A stretch of DNA of 64,000 nucleotides. Origin: Bauldia sp. (GTDB taxonomy: Bacteria; Pseudomonadota; Alphaproteobacteria; Rhizobiales; Kaistiaceae). Every line of letters starts with the position of its first letter. Position 1 is the stretch's first letter. A program made the translations under genes and the position numbers. Positions 7,665 to 59,890 of this stretch are shown here, in pieces. The notes beneath the pieces are model-generated. The model made no database searches. It was not told where the DNA came from and saw nothing but the letters and a program-made list of their open reading frames with translations. The stretch spans positions 1-64,000 of the forward strand of contig JADLGL010000082.1 in the NCBI GenBank assembly GCA_020849325.1, given 5' to 3'.

Positions 7665-7730
7665 GGCGGGTGCAGAACCATCTGGTGTTCCGTGCTGGTG
7701 GCCGCACCAGAGCCTTCGTTGGTGTCCAGA

Positions 7731-8426
7731 ATGCCGCTGATTGAGTATGAGATAGTCACAGCCGACATTGTTATGAATCAAGTTTTCCACCGACCGATCT
7801 TCGACTGGGAGAGGGCGGCCCGGAAATTCTTTGCGACGGTTTACGATGCAATTAGCCCCAAGTATCCCATCTCGGCGCGTGAGCTATCCCTAAGCCAGAG
7901 CATCGTACTTAGCGATGTATCGTCGCGATACAGCATTTTTGGCGGAAATAGTTCGGTCTATCTTAATCCGGACAAAGTCGGAGCGAACTTCGTTGGTATT
8001 CAGTCGCGCGATATTGAGACAGCGATGGATATACAAACCGCGGTTCAGGAACGCTTCGACAGCGAATTTCCGGAGTGTATGGTGAGATCAGTCGAATATC
8101 GTTGGGTAGGCCATGTGAGGTTAAGAGATCGCGCGGTTGGCGATTATCTCGCGACCTTCGCCCCACAGCTTTCCGGCAGGCCCGAGATTACTGATTTCGC
8201 GTACAAGCCTGGGATCAGGTTTAGACTGTCGCGTGCGCAACCTACGGCCGAGTTCGAGCTTACAGCAGAGAGGAGCTTGGCGTTCGACGACGCACTGTTC
8301 ATATCGCGAGCTATAAGTCTCGGGCTTCCCGACGGGCCTGGAACCTTCGCCAAGCGCTTAGCACTCCTTGTCGAGTTTGATGAAATCGGTCTGCGCTGCG
8401 CCAATCTCACATCGAGTCGAACATGA
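7731..8426 (+). CDS. Uncharacterised protein, first gene of RES/Xre cassette
   Basis: ORF MPLIEYEIVTADIVMNQVFHRPIFDWERAARKFFATVYDAISPKY...; AT-richer than flanks; 4-nt overlap with next gene; start uncertain (GTG 7692 possible). Confidence 0.7.
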   Translation: MPLIEYEIVTADIVMNQVFHRPIFDWERAARKFFATVYDAISPKYPISARELSLSQSIVLSDVSSRYSIFGGNSSVYLNPDKVGANFVGIQSRDIETAMDIQTAVQERFDSEFPECMVRSVEYRWVGHVRLRDRAVGDYLATFAPQLSGRPEITDFAYKPGIRFRLSRAQPTAEFELTAERSLAFDDALFISRAISLGLPDGPGTFAKRLALLVEFDEIGLRCANLTSSRT

Positions 8427-8983
8427 TCGGGGTAGCTGCGCCTACGTTTGATGATTTGCGACGCTCTCGCATCAGCCAGTTGCAGTCCAGGCTGGAGCAA
8501 TCAGCAGTCCCGCGGTTCGATGCTCTGCTCCCCCCGAAAATTGGTAAGAACGTTGGAGAAGACGTAGATTATCGGGTAGCTCAGTCTGAGCCTCGACGAG
8601 GCTCCTGGTCGCTTTTTAGTGTCCCGCGCACGCCCTCGGCAAATATTCGGGCCTTTCTGAACACCGCGAACCGGTGGGGCCTCTCAAGGGGTGAGCAAGA
8701 GGTGCTGCTTGGCTATTCTGGTGCCCCGTTAGACGCGGCAAGGGTCTTGGACGGCCGCGCCGCTATGCTTGGACAAGACGCAAAGGACAGGGTCACTTAC
8801 GTTCTTGCTATATCATTGGCAATCGCGCGTGTTCTGCGGGATGGAGAAGCGGCCGAGCGCGGTTGGTTGCGATCAGCCCGCACCTCTTTTGAGGGAAAGT
8901 CTGCACTCCAGTTGATGCTCTCCGGAAGAATGGAGGACCTGCTGCGTGTCCGACAGATGGCCAAAGATGAATGGGGTCCGTGA
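8423..8983 (+). CDS. MbcA/ParS/Xre-type antitoxin (DUF2384-like toxin-binding domain)
   Basis: C-terminus RGWLRSARTSFEGKSALQLMLSGRMEDLLRVRQMAKDEW; immediately upstream of a RES-domain gene. Confidence 0.75.
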   Translation: MIGVAAPTFDDLRRSRISQLQSRLEQSAVPRFDALLPPKIGKNVGEDVDYRVAQSEPRRGSWSLFSVPRTPSANIRAFLNTANRWGLSRGEQEVLLGYSGAPLDAARVLDGRAAMLGQDAKDRVTYVLAISLAIARVLRDGEAAERGWLRSARTSFEGKSALQLMLSGRMEDLLRVRQMAKDEWGP

Positions 8984-9565
8984 GTGGGCATTGGACAGTT
9001 CGATGTGCTTAGAGTGTCGTTTCCACCGCGAGATGTGAGACAAGAGTTAGAGGATCGGGGCGTTGACGATGAAGCAATATCCGAAATTCTACCCGAACTA
9101 GCGAGAGAGCTATCGAATGTTAACAATTTGAATGCTTTGATCGATTATTGTTTTGATCATCCCTCGGCTGGTCGATTTAGTGACGGTACCTTCGGTGTAT
9201 TTTACTCAGCACTAGAGGAGGAGACAGCGATTGCTGAGAAACGGTATCATGCCTCAGCAAAGGCGGCAGAGGATGGCTTGTCGAGGACATTTGTATTGAT
9301 GCGATGCTTCTTCGACGGTGAGTACGAAGAGCTTGTCGGCCAGGAAGAGATATCGCCGTACTTAGTGGCTGACGATGGGTATCCGGCGTGTTGCGAGCGA
9401 GCACGGGAGTCTATCGCTCGCGGAGTACAATGCTTCCTCACCGGTTCAGCGAGGCGACCGGGAGGTGTTTGTTCCCCAGTCTTTGTTCGCTCCTCGCTGA
9501 CAGGACCAGTCATTTTGCGTCAAGTCGTGCTGGTTCGCCAGGACGGCGGCTGGATGCTGATCTGA
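8984..9565 (+). CDS. RES-domain toxin
   Basis: GRFSDGTFGVFYSALEEETAIAEKRYH and GSARRPGGVCSPVFVR match RES R...E...S motifs; GTG start directly after the antitoxin stop. Confidence 0.78.
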   Translation: MGIGQFDVLRVSFPPRDVRQELEDRGVDDEAISEILPELARELSNVNNLNALIDYCFDHPSAGRFSDGTFGVFYSALEEETAIAEKRYHASAKAAEDGLSRTFVLMRCFFDGEYEELVGQEEISPYLVADDGYPACCERARESIARGVQCFLTGSARRPGGVCSPVFVRSSLTGPVILRQVVLVRQDGGWMLI

Positions 9566-38858: not shown

Positions 38859-39104
38859 ATGGAAGAAGCGGTTTCGGCAGCGGACGCCAACCGTCGATTC
38901 TCGCGCATCCTCCGCGGCGTGCGCGAGGGGCATAGCTATGTCGTGACGAGCCATGGACGGCCCGTTGCGCGCATCGTTCCCGCCGACGAGGGGGAAGGCG
39001 TGGTTTCCGGCGCACGCGCCTCACTGCTGTCGCGCCTCGGACGCCAGCCTGTCTTCGATGCCGGGCGCTGGACACGCGACGAACTCTATGAGGACGACCG
39101 TTGA
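38859..39104 (+). CDS. Phd/YefM-family antitoxin
   Basis: VSAADANRRFSRILRGVREGHSYVVTSHGRPVARIVPA; 4-nt overlap with downstream PIN gene. Confidence 0.88.
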   Translation: MEEAVSAADANRRFSRILRGVREGHSYVVTSHGRPVARIVPADEGEGVVSGARASLLSRLGRQPVFDAGRWTRDELYEDDR

Positions 39105-39559
39105 AGGTCGCTCTCGACACGAACATCCTTGCCTATGCGGAGGGCATGAACGGCGTCGAGAAACGGGACATTGCTCTCGAGCTGGTGCGCCGGCTGCCGC
39201 AGCAGGCGACCGTCATTCCCGTTCAGGTTCTGGGCGAGCTTTTCAATGTTCTGACGCGCAAGGGCGGTAGGTCGCGAACCGACGCTCGCGAGTCGCAGCT
39301 GGGCTGGCGGGATGCCTTTCCGGTCATCGAGACCGCGCCGGATGTCATGCTGACTGCCGCCGACCTCTCAACCGCTCACCAGTTCGGCATCTGGGATGCG
39401 GTCATTCTCTCGGTCGCGTCGCACGCCGGCTGTCGGCTGCTTCTGTCTGAAGACCTTCAAGACAGTTTCACATGGGGCGGTGTGACGATCGTGAATCCCT
39501 TCGCCTTTCCCCGGCATGACCTGCTCGAATCGCTGTTGGTCATCGGCGACGACGGCTAG
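39101..39559 (+). CDS. PIN-domain toxin (VapC-like)
   Basis: MKVALDTNILAYAEG...VIPVQVLGELFNVL...FGIWDAVILSVASHAGCRLLLSEDLQD. Confidence 0.9.
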   Translation: MKVALDTNILAYAEGMNGVEKRDIALELVRRLPQQATVIPVQVLGELFNVLTRKGGRSRTDARESQLGWRDAFPVIETAPDVMLTAADLSTAHQFGIWDAVILSVASHAGCRLLLSEDLQDSFTWGGVTIVNPFAFPRHDLLESLLVIGDDG

Positions 39560-54532: not shown

Positions 54533-56193
54533 TTGAACGTCGCGGATTACGTCGTCGCTTTCCTTGCCGCGATGGGGGTGAAGCACGTCTACGGCTATCC
54601 CGGCTCGCCGCTGGTGCCGCTCCTCGCGGCGTTCGAGCGGCAGGACAAAGTGCGGTTCGTGCTGATGTGGCACGAGAACGCCGCCGCGATGGCCGCCGGC
54701 GCGCATGGGCGGATCACCGGCGATCCTCGGCGTCTGCATCGCGACCTCGGGCCCCGGCGCCCTCAATGCGCTCTGCGGCGTCGTCGATTCCGATCTCGAC
54801 CGCGTACCGGTGCTCGCCCTCACCGGCTCGGTGCCGACGGCGCAGGAGGGGCACTGGGAGTTCCAGGACGTCAGCCAGGCGCAGCTCTACCGCGCCGTGC
54901 TCGCCCACAGCGCCGCCGCGACGCACCCGCACCAGCTCGTGGCGCTCCTGCGAAACTTCGTCGGCATCGCCCGGCAGGAGCAGCGCGCCGTGCACCTGTC
55001 GCTGCCGTCCGACCTCCTCGCGACGGAGATCGCGCCGGACGACCGCGTCTTCCGGCTCGACGCCGCCCACCAGCCGCGCCACCTCCGGCTGATGCCGCCG
55101 CCGATGGCGGCCGTCGAGATCGTCGCGGAGGAGATCGAGACTTATCGGCTGCCGGTCATCGTCATCGGCCGCCGGGCGCTCGGCTGCGGCGTCGCGATCG
55201 AGATGCTCGCCGAGAAGCTCGGCGCGCCGATCATCACCTCGCTCGACGGCAAGGGGATCATCGACGAGTCCCATCCCAACCTTCTCGGCGTCCTCGGTAT
55301 TTTCGGCTTCCCGGCGATGGAGGCGACGCGAAAAATCCTCCGCGAGGCCGATCTCCTCCTCGCGATGGGAATCGACACGATAAAGCCGTTCCTCACCGAC
55401 GAGGTCGACGTCCAGCGCCGGGCGTTCATCCAGTGCGAGCCCGAGGCGGCCTTCCTCACCCACGAGTACCACCGCGACCGAACGCTCGTCGGGCCCGCTC
55501 GACGCCATCGCCGACGCGCTCTGCGAGAACCTCCGCCAGCGCCCGCCGCGCGACGCCGTCACTGCCCTCGCCGCCGAACGCACGGCCTTCCGCCAGACGC
55601 TCGCGGCACCGAAGCTGGCAAAGCCCGGCGACTTCATCCATCCCCGCGATTTCCTCCTCGCCCTCAGCGCCGTCCTCCCCGAGGACGCCGCCCTAGTCTT
55701 CGACACTGGCGCCAACACGCTCTGGACGGCGCAATACCTCGAGTTGACAAGGCGCCAGCGTGTCATCGTCCCGAGCCATCTCGGCACGATGGGCTTCGCT
55801 CTCCCCGCCGCAATCGCCATGCAGCACGCGCGGCCCGGCAAGCCGGTGATCGCCCTCTGCGGCGACGGCGGTTTCCAGATGACGGTGGGCGAACTCGCCG
55901 TCGCCGTTCAGGAGCAGCTGCCGATCGTCGTCATCGTCTTCAACAACGGCGTTTTGCAGAACGTGATGGCGCAGCAGGCCGTGCCCTACGGGACGAAGCT
56001 GGTGAGCCCGGATTTCGTGGCGCTGGCGCGGGCTTATGGGGCGGATGGGGCCGAGGCTGGGGAGAACACGGCTGATGTGTTCGCCGAGGCGCTAGCGCCA
56101 AGGAGGACGCGGCCGTTCCTGATCGATCTGCGGGTAGACCCGGAGGTGCGGTTCTCAATCAGCAAGTGGGAGAATTACACCGCTCGGCTGTAG
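54533..56193 (+). pseudogene. Thiamine-pyrophosphate-dependent (acetolactate synthase-like) enzyme split over three frames
   Basis: MNVADYVVAFLAAMGVKHVYGYPGSP (frame 1), AILGVCIATSGPGALNALCGVVDSD (frame 2), FALPAAIAMQHARPGKPVIALCGDGGFQMTVGELAVAVQEQLPIVVIVFNN (frame 3). Confidence 0.8.
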
Positions 56194-56446
56194 TGCTTCA
56201 TCGTCAGCTCAACAAAACGGAGACTGACCAACGAGCTAAGCAACGCTTGCTTGAGACGGTCCGCACTCCCGCCGCTTAACGCGATCAGCCGGCATCCTTC
56301 TAGTGCCATGGTTGTGGTGTGGCCGCTGACGAACCCCACTTCGCCTCATACGCGGCTTCGTAGCCCCGCTTTCACGGGAAACGGATGGCGCCCAAATCCC
56401 ATGGACAACCGCCAGAAAAGGGGGGCCGGCCTCTTGGCGTCTGCAA

Positions 56447-56491
56447 GCCACGCTACTATTTAGCCAACTCAACTCAAAAGCGGGGCGTGGC
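56447..56491. promoter_or_regulatory. Inverted repeat upstream of HTH/CHAT operon
   Basis: GCCACGC (56447-56453) and GCGTGGC (56485-56491) flank an AT-rich segment just before the ATG at 56495. Confidence 0.3.
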
Positions 56492-56494
56492 ACG

Positions 56495-56869
56495 ATGGCC
56501 AACGAAGAGGTGTACCTTAGGGCAATTTTGGCAACGGTTGCTCGTCAAACCTACCCGCCAGACACTTTAGCTCGACTTGTCTCACCGGTTCGGAAGGCGG
56601 GTGACAAGCAGCTAGCAGCCTACAATTTGTGTGATGGCACGCGCAGTCAAACCGACATAGCCAAAGAGCTTAAACTAGACTCTGGTGCATTCAGTCGCAC
56701 AGTCAGCAGATGGATCGAGTTAGGTATCGTAGTTCGGGTCGGACAAAATCGTGACCTTAGACTAGTTCATCTGTATCCTCTCCCAGTCTCTATACGGAAG
56801 GAGCGCTCCCATGACAGACCTGACGAGCGAGCTAATCAAGAAGATGGACATACTGATCCGACTGAATAG
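56495..56869 (+). CDS. MarR-like winged-HTH protein (operon gene 1)
   Basis: DKQLAAYNLCDGTRSQTDIAKELKLDSGAFSRTVSRWIELGIVVRVGQNRDLRLVHLYPL. Confidence 0.78.
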   Translation: MANEEVYLRAILATVARQTYPPDTLARLVSPVRKAGDKQLAAYNLCDGTRSQTDIAKELKLDSGAFSRTVSRWIELGIVVRVGQNRDLRLVHLYPLPVSIRKERSHDRPDERANQEDGHTDPTE

Positions 56870-57053
56870 TCTTTCAATTGTGAAAGACCTGCCGTCTCAG
56901 AAAGACAAAATACTCATGCTTCGCAGGGCAGGCCTCGGAAACATCGAGATAGCCGAAATGCTTGATACATCAGCGAATACGGTTAGCGTTACTTTGGCTA
57001 AGGCAAAACGCTCGGCAGCACACAAACAGGAGGACGGAACCATTGGAAACTGA
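56811..57053 (+). CDS. Small sigma-region-4-like HTH protein (operon gene 2)
   Basis: KDKILMLRRAGLGNIEIAEMLDTSANTVSVTLAKAKRSA; SD ggaagga upstream; overlaps gene 1. Confidence 0.75.
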   Translation: MTDLTSELIKKMDILIRLNSLSIVKDLPSQKDKILMLRRAGLGNIEIAEMLDTSANTVSVTLAKAKRSAAHKQEDGTIGN

Positions 57054-57243
57054 GACACTGGCAAAAGAACTTGCTTCTATTAAGCGGTTACTTGTCCTAG
57101 CGCTGCTCAGCAGCGGCCTGACGCAGTCGCAGGTCGGAGGGGCACTCGGTATTGATCGGACAGGGGTCGGCCGGATGTTCCCAAAGGGAACGCTCAGCGG
57201 AATCCGCGGGAAGGCTGACAGGTCGGAACCTACTGATGGATAG
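57043..57243 (+). CDS. Micro-HTH protein (operon gene 3)
   Basis: LASIKRLLVLALLSSGLTQSQVGGALGIDRTGVGRMFPKG; TTG start with AGGAGG SD; overlaps gene 2. Confidence 0.68.
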   Translation: METETLAKELASIKRLLVLALLSSGLTQSQVGGALGIDRTGVGRMFPKGTLSGIRGKADRSEPTDG

Positions 57244-57448
57244 TCAAAACAAGGAGATGCTCGACGAGTTGCGCTTCATTCGCAAGTTACTCATACTGCA
57301 ATTGCTTGGGCAGGGTGTTAAACAGCGCCAGATCGCGGCAATGCTTGGACTGAGTGAAGCAACTGTCAGCCGCATGATACCTCGCGGGGTGACAAGAGAA
57401 TCGAAGCCCAAAGCCAGCGACAAAGTTGGGAGCAGCGATGAAAACTGA
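57236..57448 (+). CDS. Micro-HTH protein (operon gene 4)
   Basis: LRFIRKLLILQLLGQGVKQRQIAAMLGLSEATVSRMIPRG; overlaps gene 3 by 8 nt. Confidence 0.72.
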   Translation: MDSQNKEMLDELRFIRKLLILQLLGQGVKQRQIAAMLGLSEATVSRMIPRGVTRESKPKASDKVGSSDEN

Positions 57449-57632
57449 TGCCGTGCTCACGTCTATCGCGGACAACCTGGAGGCGCTCAAGAAACTCCAA
57501 ATCATGTCGTTGCTGCGTGACGGGTATTCGCAGTCGGAAATTGCACTTGCACTGGGTGTGAGCCAGCCCACTATCAGTAGGATGTTCCCAAAGGGCGCAC
57601 TTGGAAAGGAGCGCAACGGTTCCAATGGCTAA
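57438..57632 (+). CDS. Micro-HTH protein (operon gene 5)
   Basis: LEALKKLQIMSLLRDGYSQSEIALALGVSQPTISRMFPKG; overlaps gene 4 by 11 nt. Confidence 0.72.
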   Translation: MKTDAVLTSIADNLEALKKLQIMSLLRDGYSQSEIALALGVSQPTISRMFPKGALGKERNGSNG

Positions 57633-58701
57633 CCCTGCGCCCGTCATTGACGGCCACGCCAGCTTCGAGGAAATCCTTGAAAGGATGGCAGCTAAGATTG
57701 GGACCTCCGAACTAAGGCGGAGGATATTGTCAGTGATCTATGGCCGGGTGCGGCGCCCTCAGACGGTCGAGCAGATTTGTACCGCCATTGGCTCTAGCTC
57801 TGGCACTGACAAGCAACAAGTCAGAAACCACGTCAACTATCTCGCCAAGAATCACCTTGTTACCAAGGAGAAGGCAGCCGGAAACACTTATGGCTACGGA
57901 AAGATGGATTTTGTATCGGCCAATAAGGCTCGGCTTTTTCGTCTTGCCTCAAGTCCATCGGAACGAAACGCACTTCCAACAAGAAGGAGACCTGCGTCAG
58001 CGTTGATTGCGGCAACAGCCCCCACGCGGGGCCGCGCGTCCGCTATGGGGCGCCCACGGCCGCGAGCGTCTCTTGATATTCTCTACCTGACGGCGTCACC
58101 AGCATCCCAGGAGGCGCTGCGAGCAGACGCTGAGGTTCGTGCAGTGCAAAATGAGGTCCGCGGGGCGAAGTTTAGAGACCGCGTTCGTATCGCTGTTTCG
58201 CCGGCGGCGGACGCAGGTAGCCTTATGCAGGGCCTGAATGATCATCGGCCTCAGGTCGTGCATTTCTCGGGGCATGCTGGTGGGCAAGCACTCTGGATGG
58301 ACGACGGTCGTGTTGATCGTTCGGTAGGATCTGCGTTGAAGTTCGATGTGCTTGCCGAGATTCTGAACGCTACGGACGAACCGCCGGTTCTTCTAGTTCT
58401 GAATGCTTGCGATACGCTGAACGGGGCGACAGCATTGCTCTCGGCGGTGCGGTGCGTGGTTGCCATGTCTGACTCAGTGACAGATTTGGGCGCCACGGTG
58501 TTCGCGACCAAGTTCTACGGTGGGATTGGCGCCGGCCAGTCGGTCCTATCGGCCTTCAATCAGGGGCGAGCGGCCATGAAGGCGGCCACGCTAGCCGACG
58601 CCGATTTGCCAACGCTTTTGTATGGAGACGACCTCGATCCTTCGATGATTGTGCTGGTCAAGCAGCGGCGCTCTTGGAAGGTTGGTTCGTCTTACGAGTA
58701 G
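57625..58701 (+). CDS. wHTH-CHAT domain protein (caspase-like protease fold; operon gene 6)
   Basis: N-terminal wHTH (RPQTVEQICTAIGSSSGTDKQQVRNHVNYLAKNHLVTKEK); C-terminal CHAT motifs VVHFSGHA, LLVLNACDT, MSDSVTDLGATVFATKFYGGIGAGQSVLSAFNQGRAAM. Confidence 0.85.
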   Translation: MANPAPVIDGHASFEEILERMAAKIGTSELRRRILSVIYGRVRRPQTVEQICTAIGSSSGTDKQQVRNHVNYLAKNHLVTKEKAAGNTYGYGKMDFVSANKARLFRLASSPSERNALPTRRRPASALIAATAPTRGRASAMGRPRPRASLDILYLTASPASQEALRADAEVRAVQNEVRGAKFRDRVRIAVSPAADAGSLMQGLNDHRPQVVHFSGHAGGQALWMDDGRVDRSVGSALKFDVLAEILNATDEPPVLLVLNACDTLNGATALLSAVRCVVAMSDSVTDLGATVFATKFYGGIGAGQSVLSAFNQGRAAMKAATLADADLPTLLYGDDLDPSMIVLVKQRRSWKVGSSYE

Positions 58702-58711
58702 GTGGGCCCAG

Positions 58712-59239
58712 TTGTCGTTGTCATCGGCGGTTGAAGTTCGGGCCGCCTCCCCCCACAAGCAAACCCTCGTGGCGGGCCTCATGCAGTTCTACCTCCACGA
58801 CTTCTCCACCATCGGGAACAGCGCCTCCCCGCTGTACGTGGTCGATCCCGAGACCGGCGCCTTTCCGCCCTATCCCGGGCTCGAGCGCTACTGGGCCGAT
58901 CCCGGCCACCTCCCCTTCGTGATCCGGACGGCGGGTGAGGTCGCGGGGTTTGCGCTCGTCGACAGGACCTCGCGTGACGGGCGGGAGATCGACTGGGCGA
59001 TGAGCGAGTTCTTCGTGCTGCGGAAATTCCGGCGGTCGGGCGTCGGCGGCGAGGCGGTGCGGCAGATTCTCGGGATGCAGCCGGGGCGGTGGGAGGTTGC
59101 GGTGATGGAGAACAACGTCGCCGCGTGGGAGTTCTGGCCGGGCGCGATCGCCGGTGCGCCGAACGTCACGGGTTTCGAGGCACGGGCGGGTGACGGCACG
59201 ACCTGGAGCGGGCCGATCTGGAGCTTTCGGGCGGTCTGA
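58712..59239 (+). CDS. GNAT-family N-acetyltransferase
   Basis: VAGFALVDRTSRDGREIDWAMSEFFVLRKFRRSGVGGEAVRQILGMQPGRWEVAVMENNVAAWEFW; start uncertain. Confidence 0.85.
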   Translation: MSLSSAVEVRAASPHKQTLVAGLMQFYLHDFSTIGNSASPLYVVDPETGAFPPYPGLERYWADPGHLPFVIRTAGEVAGFALVDRTSRDGREIDWAMSEFFVLRKFRRSGVGGEAVRQILGMQPGRWEVAVMENNVAAWEFWPGAIAGAPNVTGFEARAGDGTTWSGPIWSFRAV

Positions 59240-59323
59240 GCGCCTGCCCTTTCCCCGCGCTGGACCGCGGTCCCGGCCGCGTGCAGAAGTACCGCGACCG
59301 ATGAAGGGGGACGGAGGACGGCA

Positions 59324-59890
59324 GTGAAGGCGCTTCGCATTCTCGCAGCCGGCATCGCACTGGCGCTGGCCGCGCCGCACTTCGCCGCCGCCCAGGCGCC
59401 GGCGGCGGCGACGCCGGAGATCCAGAACTTCATCTACAAGGGCAAATGGGGTTTCCGGCTGCCGGACGGCTGGCTGGTCAACGCGGAACTCTCCTTCCCC
59501 TACATCGCCAGCAGCCCGACCGCGGCGGCGACGATGGAACAGGGGCTCCGCATCCAGCCGGGCGACATCGCCATCGGCATCTTCCCGCAGGACCTCATGC
59601 CGGCCCTCGGCATCACCTACACGGCCTCGGCCGGGGAGCTCGCGGCGGCCCTCGCCGCCTGGCTCGGCGGGGAGATCGATCTCGTGCCGCTCGAGGGCGC
59701 GGCCGGGCCGGCGGTCTGGACCTCGCTTGTCGGCTCCGCCGCGGTGGCCGAGAATGCCCATCTCGTCGTCTACGAAAGCGGCGGCGCGGCGTTCGCGATG
59801 CTGGTGGTGACGCTCGACTTCGAGGGCACGGCGGCGGAGATCGTCCGCGGGATCATCGCGAGCACCGTCGTCCTCGGCGCGATCCCGTAG
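59324..59890 (+). CDS. Secreted hypothetical protein
   Basis: MKALRILAAGIALALAAPHFAAAQAPAAATPEIQNFIYKGKWGFRLPDGW...; signal peptide. Confidence 0.7.
   Translation: MKALRILAAGIALALAAPHFAAAQAPAAATPEIQNFIYKGKWGFRLPDGWLVNAELSFPYIASSPTAAATMEQGLRIQPGDIAIGIFPQDLMPALGITYTASAGELAAALAAWLGGEIDLVPLEGAAGPAVWTSLVGSAAVAENAHLVVYESGGAAFAMLVVTLDFEGTAAEIVRGIIASTVVLGAIP

Follow-up and report, generated by a model that had tools for sequence, protein, structure and literature searches.

Organization of the cassette

The window, a 64,000-nucleotide stretch of a Bauldia sp. contig, carries on its + strand at 56495–58701 a 2.2 kb cassette of six overlapping genes (g1–g6). An earlier note on this DNA had read six consecutive overlapping frames here, and a check of the sequence found every one of them in place. 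The features are as follows.

56495..56869, + strand: gene 1, MarR-like winged HTH, 124 aa
56811..57053, + strand: gene 2, sigma-70 region-4-like HTH, 80 aa; 59 bp overlap with gene 1
57043..57243, + strand: gene 3, micro-HTH, 66 aa, TTG start
57236..57448, + strand: gene 4, micro-HTH, 70 aa
57438..57632, + strand: gene 5, micro-HTH, 64 aa
57625..58701, + strand: gene 6 entire, winged HTH and CHAT
57625..57990, + strand: gene 6 N-terminal part, winged HTH and PT(K/R)RR linker, residues 1–122
57991..58701, + strand: gene 6 C-terminal CHAT effector; Pfam CHAT and SAVED-CHAT 8tl0 matches
56363..56486, no strand: segment ahead of gene 1 with a 10-nt inverted repeat at its ends (56363–56372 and 56477–56486), possible operator

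The six-gene block is foreign to the Bauldia genome, since the GC3 of its genes is 0.45–0.65 versus mostly 0.85–0.93 in the adjoining genes. Its GC content of 0.49–0.61, against ~0.70 in the flanks, agrees with the AT-richness noticed earlier. The inverted repeat upstream of gene 1 may be an operator; one as long arises in 6 of 1000 dinucleotide shuffles, and none was seen in the other four array loci described below. The block is surrounded by ordinary chromosomal and housekeeping genes, and the defence context of this copy comes by relationship to other loci only. Genomes of the same genus are too diverged at this locus for an empty site to be recognized, and the empty-site comparison was made in Mesorhizobium.

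Directly upstream of the array, a thiamine-diphosphate (acetolactate-synthase-like) gene at 54533–56193 spans three frames, with ORFs starting at 54533, 54705 and 55744, and has apparently been frameshifted twice; it looks like either a decaying gene or the product of assembly errors. Elsewhere in the window, an AT-rich pair at 8423–9565 encodes an Xre/MbcA/ParS antitoxin (1.6e-6) and a RES-domain toxin (4.1e-14) of a known toxin–antitoxin type, just behind an AT-rich segment (7692–8426) without a Pfam match, and a PIN-domain (VapC-like) protein (1.4e-11) is encoded at 39101–39559.

The small HTH proteins

Gene 1 matches MarR_2 of Pfam (1.4e-6), and its orthologs in the other array loci are 44–57% identical to it. 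Gene 2 resembles region 4 of sigma-70 (Pfam Sigma70_r4_2, 1.5e-5, just under the cut-off; TIGR02937, 4.3e-7), with orthologs at 40–44% identity; region 4 alone was matched within its 80 residues and sigma region 2 is absent, so that gene 2 is not a sigma-70 factor in the sense of a protein with regions 2 and 4. Genes 4 and 5 match HTH_23 (4.9e-8 and 1.3e-6, respectively). Gene 3 gives weak Pfam HTH matches only (0.011); DNA binding by its product is predicted from its family similarity to genes 4 and 5, through which it joins the mutually related trio g3–g5 (64–70 aa). Of the four micro-HTH proteins counted in the earlier note, these three stand as such, while the fourth, gene 2, proves to be sigma-region-4-like.

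The earlier note had named purifying selection as one test of the small frames, and they came through it: for g1–g5, pN between loci is 0.20–0.50 against a pS of 0.66–0.93 that is saturated or nearly so. The two Mesorhizobium loci give the lowest pN, and comparisons with Rhodomicrobium, the most distant locus, give the highest. The comparison between loci indicates that every small gene is under purifying selection, because the proteins of the cassette are 33–68% identical while synonymous sites are saturated. A tree of the 12 micro-HTH proteins accommodates the g3, g4 and g5 labels with only two changes, as none of 200 shuffles did; its individual branches are modestly supported. A recent tandem duplication of g3–g5 was considered and rejected, as orthology follows position. 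Judging from this tree, g3, g4 and g5 are positional orthologs that have long been maintained separately, an argument for their having different DNA targets or different positions within a complex.

Gene 6 combines a winged HTH with a CHAT domain

The reading of the last gene as an HTH fused to CHAT is upheld. Residues 121–318 match Pfam CHAT (PF12770; E = 2.4e-11, 44 bits versus a cut-off of 24), and residues 28–81 match HTH_20 (5e-5, below the cut-off), which is the best Pfam match to the N-terminal third; no TPR was found in gene 6 with Pfam, and no SAVED domain was matched in Pfam, PADLOC or NCBIfam. A His–Cys dyad is kept, with H217 (HFSGH; 58273–58275) and C262 (VLNAC; 58408–58410) at the positions of the catalytic pair in CHAT proteases, and is conserved in the homologs from two of the other loci, an uncultured alphaproteobacterium and Mesorhizobium G1108. 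The C-terminal part of gene 6 is thus a predicted caspase-like protease domain. Matches to PF20019 VMAP-M20 (E = 0.013, under the cut-off) and, partially, to the ‘chat’ model of PADLOC-DB 2.0.0 (4.8e-5) were also obtained. Structure models of gene 6 on its own and of the alternative effector described below had pLDDT values of 35 and 33, too poor for use.

The closest solved relative of the CHAT domain is that of SAVED-CHAT (PDB 8tl0, 3.5e-18; PMC11417357), a defence effector of type III CRISPR/CBASS that is activated by cA3 (PMC11229360). Like gene 6, SAVED-CHAT has an N-terminal control domain fused to CHAT; however, SAVED binds cyclic oligonucleotides, whereas the control domain of gene 6 is a winged HTH and the cassette has neither a Cas nor a cyclase gene. 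The earlier note had instead pointed to the TPR-CHAT of type III-E, a comparison that holds as an analogy only.

Distribution of the array

When 298 genomes from the same order as Bauldia were searched with gene 6, two were matched through the N-terminal HTH region only, and in both of them the neighbouring genes repeat the array and its order. Further copies turned up with a gene 1 profile, giving five array loci: the Bauldia window, Rhodomicrobium sp. R_RK_3 (L027), an uncultured alphaproteobacterium MAG (L028), Mesorhizobium loti LU (L029) and Mesorhizobium G1108 (L060). In all five, a winged HTH, a sigma-region-4-like HTH and one to three differentiated micro-HTHs are followed by a protein with a winged HTH and an effector part, the N-terminal winged HTH and PT(K/R)RR linker of gene 6 are common, and most gene junctions overlap or abut. 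The MAG has exactly the six genes of the window, HTH-CHAT included; G1108 lacks g5, as does Rhodomicrobium, which has a single micro-HTH. This gene order with overlapping starts in four other genomes is well beyond chance. The earlier note would have been undercut had gene 6 homologs never occurred beside the small HTH genes; those with the HTH N-terminus do so in 5/5 cases.

The gene 1 profile was found in 2 of 386 genomes of the class, clearly in 2 of 399 of the phylum and in 2 of 119 Mesorhizobium; a third phylum match (2e-4) was discarded as a MarR-acetyltransferase protein. The cassette is rare, patchy and horizontally moving among alphaproteobacteria. A scan of genome contigs with gene 6 alone as the query gave no match. 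A phage or plasmid origin was rejected on the absence of array-gene matches: gene 1 had none in phages, plasmids or viral contigs, and gene 2 and a micro-HTH query had none in plasmids or viral contigs. A wider spread of the sigma-region-4-like and micro-HTH genes was likewise dismissed, as weak matches elsewhere lie mostly in long frames, those inspected being IS30-type transposase and ArsR-like HTHs; the genomes searched held no further clusters of such genes.

A diverged array is present in G522, which belongs to the same genus as the MAG; there, five small HTH genes precede genes for a PDDEXK-like protein of 255 aa, AbiEi (3.9e-89) and AbiEii (by eye) (L061, G522:C487, 1841–3969). It may represent a second class of this system.

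The effector end is exchanged

The C-termini of gene 6 fall into two families, CHAT in the window, the MAG and G1108, and another domain in M. loti LU and Rhodomicrobium, with alignment scores of 294–405 within a family and negative scores between families. In genes 1 and 2 the two Mesorhizobium loci are mutual closest relatives despite their different effectors. In this pair the replacement seems to have taken in gene 6 as a whole, because its N-terminal parts are also just 30% identical. These alignments indicate that the effector end is interchangeable while the array and the N-terminal HTH of gene 6 are retained. The alternative effector has no Pfam or PDB match and also occurs on actinobacterial plasmids, there behind unrelated N-termini. 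Its invariant residues (E28, D54, K74 and Q93) recall the PD-(D/E)XK fold, and our guess is a nuclease of that kind; an acidic residue two before K74 is absent.

CHAT as the defining gene was rejected, since CHAT homologs without the HTH N-terminus also lack the array. Those inspected are on plasmids of Agrobacterium, Sphingomonas, Curtobacterium, Shewanella, Cytobacillus and Streptomyces; they carry other N-termini and no array, so that by gene neighbourhood the array goes with the N-terminal HTH of gene 6 rather than with CHAT. The closer CHAT homologs, at about 47% identity, are among those of Agrobacterium and other plasmids. Stand-alone rhizobial CHAT proteins from chromosomes and plasmids (for example Agrobacterium pAt1D1460) have a CHAT domain about 47–51% identical to that of gene 6, but their N-terminus is Lys/Ala-rich and by eye coiled-coil-like rather than an HTH, and the inspected ones are without the array. 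The earlier note had centred an immunity or regulatory cassette on CHAT: its conflict context is sustained, and CHAT is indeed the effector end of a conserved, horizontally moving cassette, but it is not the defining part, being replaced in two loci.

Other CHAT arrangements were seen in passing: an apparent fusion (by eye) to a response-regulator receiver domain (L003, G127, 1507–2532), an island on a Ti plasmid where genes for caspase-family, TIR and winged-HTH proteins adjoin three CHAT genes (L032, pTiCFBP5877), and a gene run on a Sphingomonas parapaucimobilis plasmid encoding a caspase-family protein, an S8 peptidase, a CHAT-like protein and a TIR protein (L031, 1489–5396).

The exchange bears directly on a proteolytic relay, in which CHAT would cleave a small HTH protein such as the sigma-region-4-like gene 2 and so switch transcription, by analogy with Csx30/RpoE of type III-E. 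As in the type III-E Craspase, a CHAT with a His/Cys pair adjoins a sigma-related protein, and the TPR-CHAT of that system, a defence effector, cleaves the neighbour-encoded, RpoE-bound Csx30 (PMC9729208). However, the cassette has no TPR or Cas7-11 (no gRAMP/Cas7-11 gene was found in it, and no CRISPR-like repeat family in 55500–59500), and gene 2 offers a region-4-like HTH only, without sigma region 2. Moreover, CHAT is replaceable: in 2 of the 5 loci, M. loti LU and Rhodomicrobium, the array is kept and an unrelated domain stands in place of CHAT, so that the five loci cannot have in common a mechanism by which CHAT cleaves array proteins, a role that the earlier note had suggested for them. 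We regard the relay as improbable; cleavage of an array protein could add to the mechanism in the CHAT versions.

A variable site beside lepA

Both Mesorhizobium arrays directly adjoin lepA, at the same site and with different effectors. In G1011 this site is nearly empty, its flanks (a hydantoinase-like gene and lepA) lying 424 bp apart. G1010, G069, G105 and G136 have other small modules instead of the array. Among these are a D12 DNA methylase pair and a HipA-like/DUF3037 pair, and G136 has a type II restriction–modification system made up of a methylase and a restriction enzyme that matches PADLOC REase_II (1.2e-99). The site beside lepA is variable and used by defence-type genes. A transposase-like gene was also seen among the variable modules upstream of lepA (L100–L107).

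Small HTH genes that lie upstream of, and are coupled to, a potential toxin recall type II toxin–antitoxin systems with HTH antitoxins, and the cassette may be read as an addiction module in which gene 6 is the toxin and the small HTH proteins are repressors or antitoxins that retain it, immunity being incidental or absent. The patchy horizontal distribution and the acceptance of HipA-like modules by the lepA site speak for this. However, five differentiated HTH proteins far exceed the needs of an antitoxin, g3–g5 are maintained as separate orthologs, the effector bears an HTH of its own, and the gene 1, gene 2 and micro-HTH queries lack plasmid matches; no known antitoxin family was found among the cassette proteins above the curated cut-offs of Pfam and NCBIfam. 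An addiction module appears unlikely to us.

A purely regulatory cassette, in which gene 6 would join the HTH proteins to switch the transcription of genes elsewhere, with neither killing nor immunity, accords with the predicted DNA-binding domain in every product. The exchange of C-termini, the rarity and the variable, defence-type site would be unusual for housekeeping regulation, and we consider this quite a long shot.

A proposed conflict system

We read array plus swappable effector as the signature of an undescribed bacterial conflict system, probably one directed against phage. The conflict-type reading is supported because the variable lepA site holds a type II restriction–modification system in G136 and the diverged array of G522 stands beside AbiEi/AbiEii. 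The array proteins have weak generic HTH matches only in PADLOC-DB 2.0.0, with no specific system, and an operon of an HTH array and CHAT is not described in PADLOC (version 2.0.0), Pfam, NCBIfam, PHROGs or the open-access literature searched; the author of the earlier note likewise knew of none. Modular NTP-dependent conflict systems such as VMAP/vWA-MoxR resemble it in that various effectors, caspase-type peptidases among them, can be combined with one conserved core (PMC7159879), but the cassette has no MoxR, vWA, STAND or other NTPase, and its core is the array of small HTH proteins. No sensor, NTPase or second-messenger domain was recognisable in the cassette.

We put at about even the chance that this is a horizontally transferred conflict cassette, most likely anti-phage, in which an HTH complex restrains and triggers an exchangeable effector. 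The co-conservation and coupling of the HTH genes suggest that their products associate, and the small HTH proteins would form a hetero-oligomeric complex on DNA in which gene 6 is held through its own winged HTH. The complex would keep the effector inactive and would probably repress the operon too. An invader might upset it by titration onto foreign DNA, by an anti-repressor or anti-sigma protein, or by DNA damage or degradation, and the effector would then be freed or clustered. The freed CHAT would cleave proteins of the cell, or in the other version the putative nuclease would act, and the infected cell would stop or die.

More tentatively, and at rather less than even odds, the several differentiated micro-HTHs may be a stoichiometric tripwire tethered to DNA or RNA polymerase, firing an effector docked via the shared winged HTH, with no NTPase, nucleotide signal or guide RNA. 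This would be a category of immunity not yet described.

Swappable effectors behind a conserved core are a mark of conflict systems, and the cores described to date, to our knowledge, rely on guides, nucleotides or NTPases for sensing. The array also illustrates that very small ORFs, readily lost in annotation, can define a system. The Mesorhizobium pair, with the same site and array and a different effector, is a natural domain-swap experiment, and the cassette, at 2.2 kb, lends itself to cloning in one piece and immediate testing. If true, a core made of several tiny co-conserved HTH proteins alone would be a new way to sense an invader or to restrain an effector.
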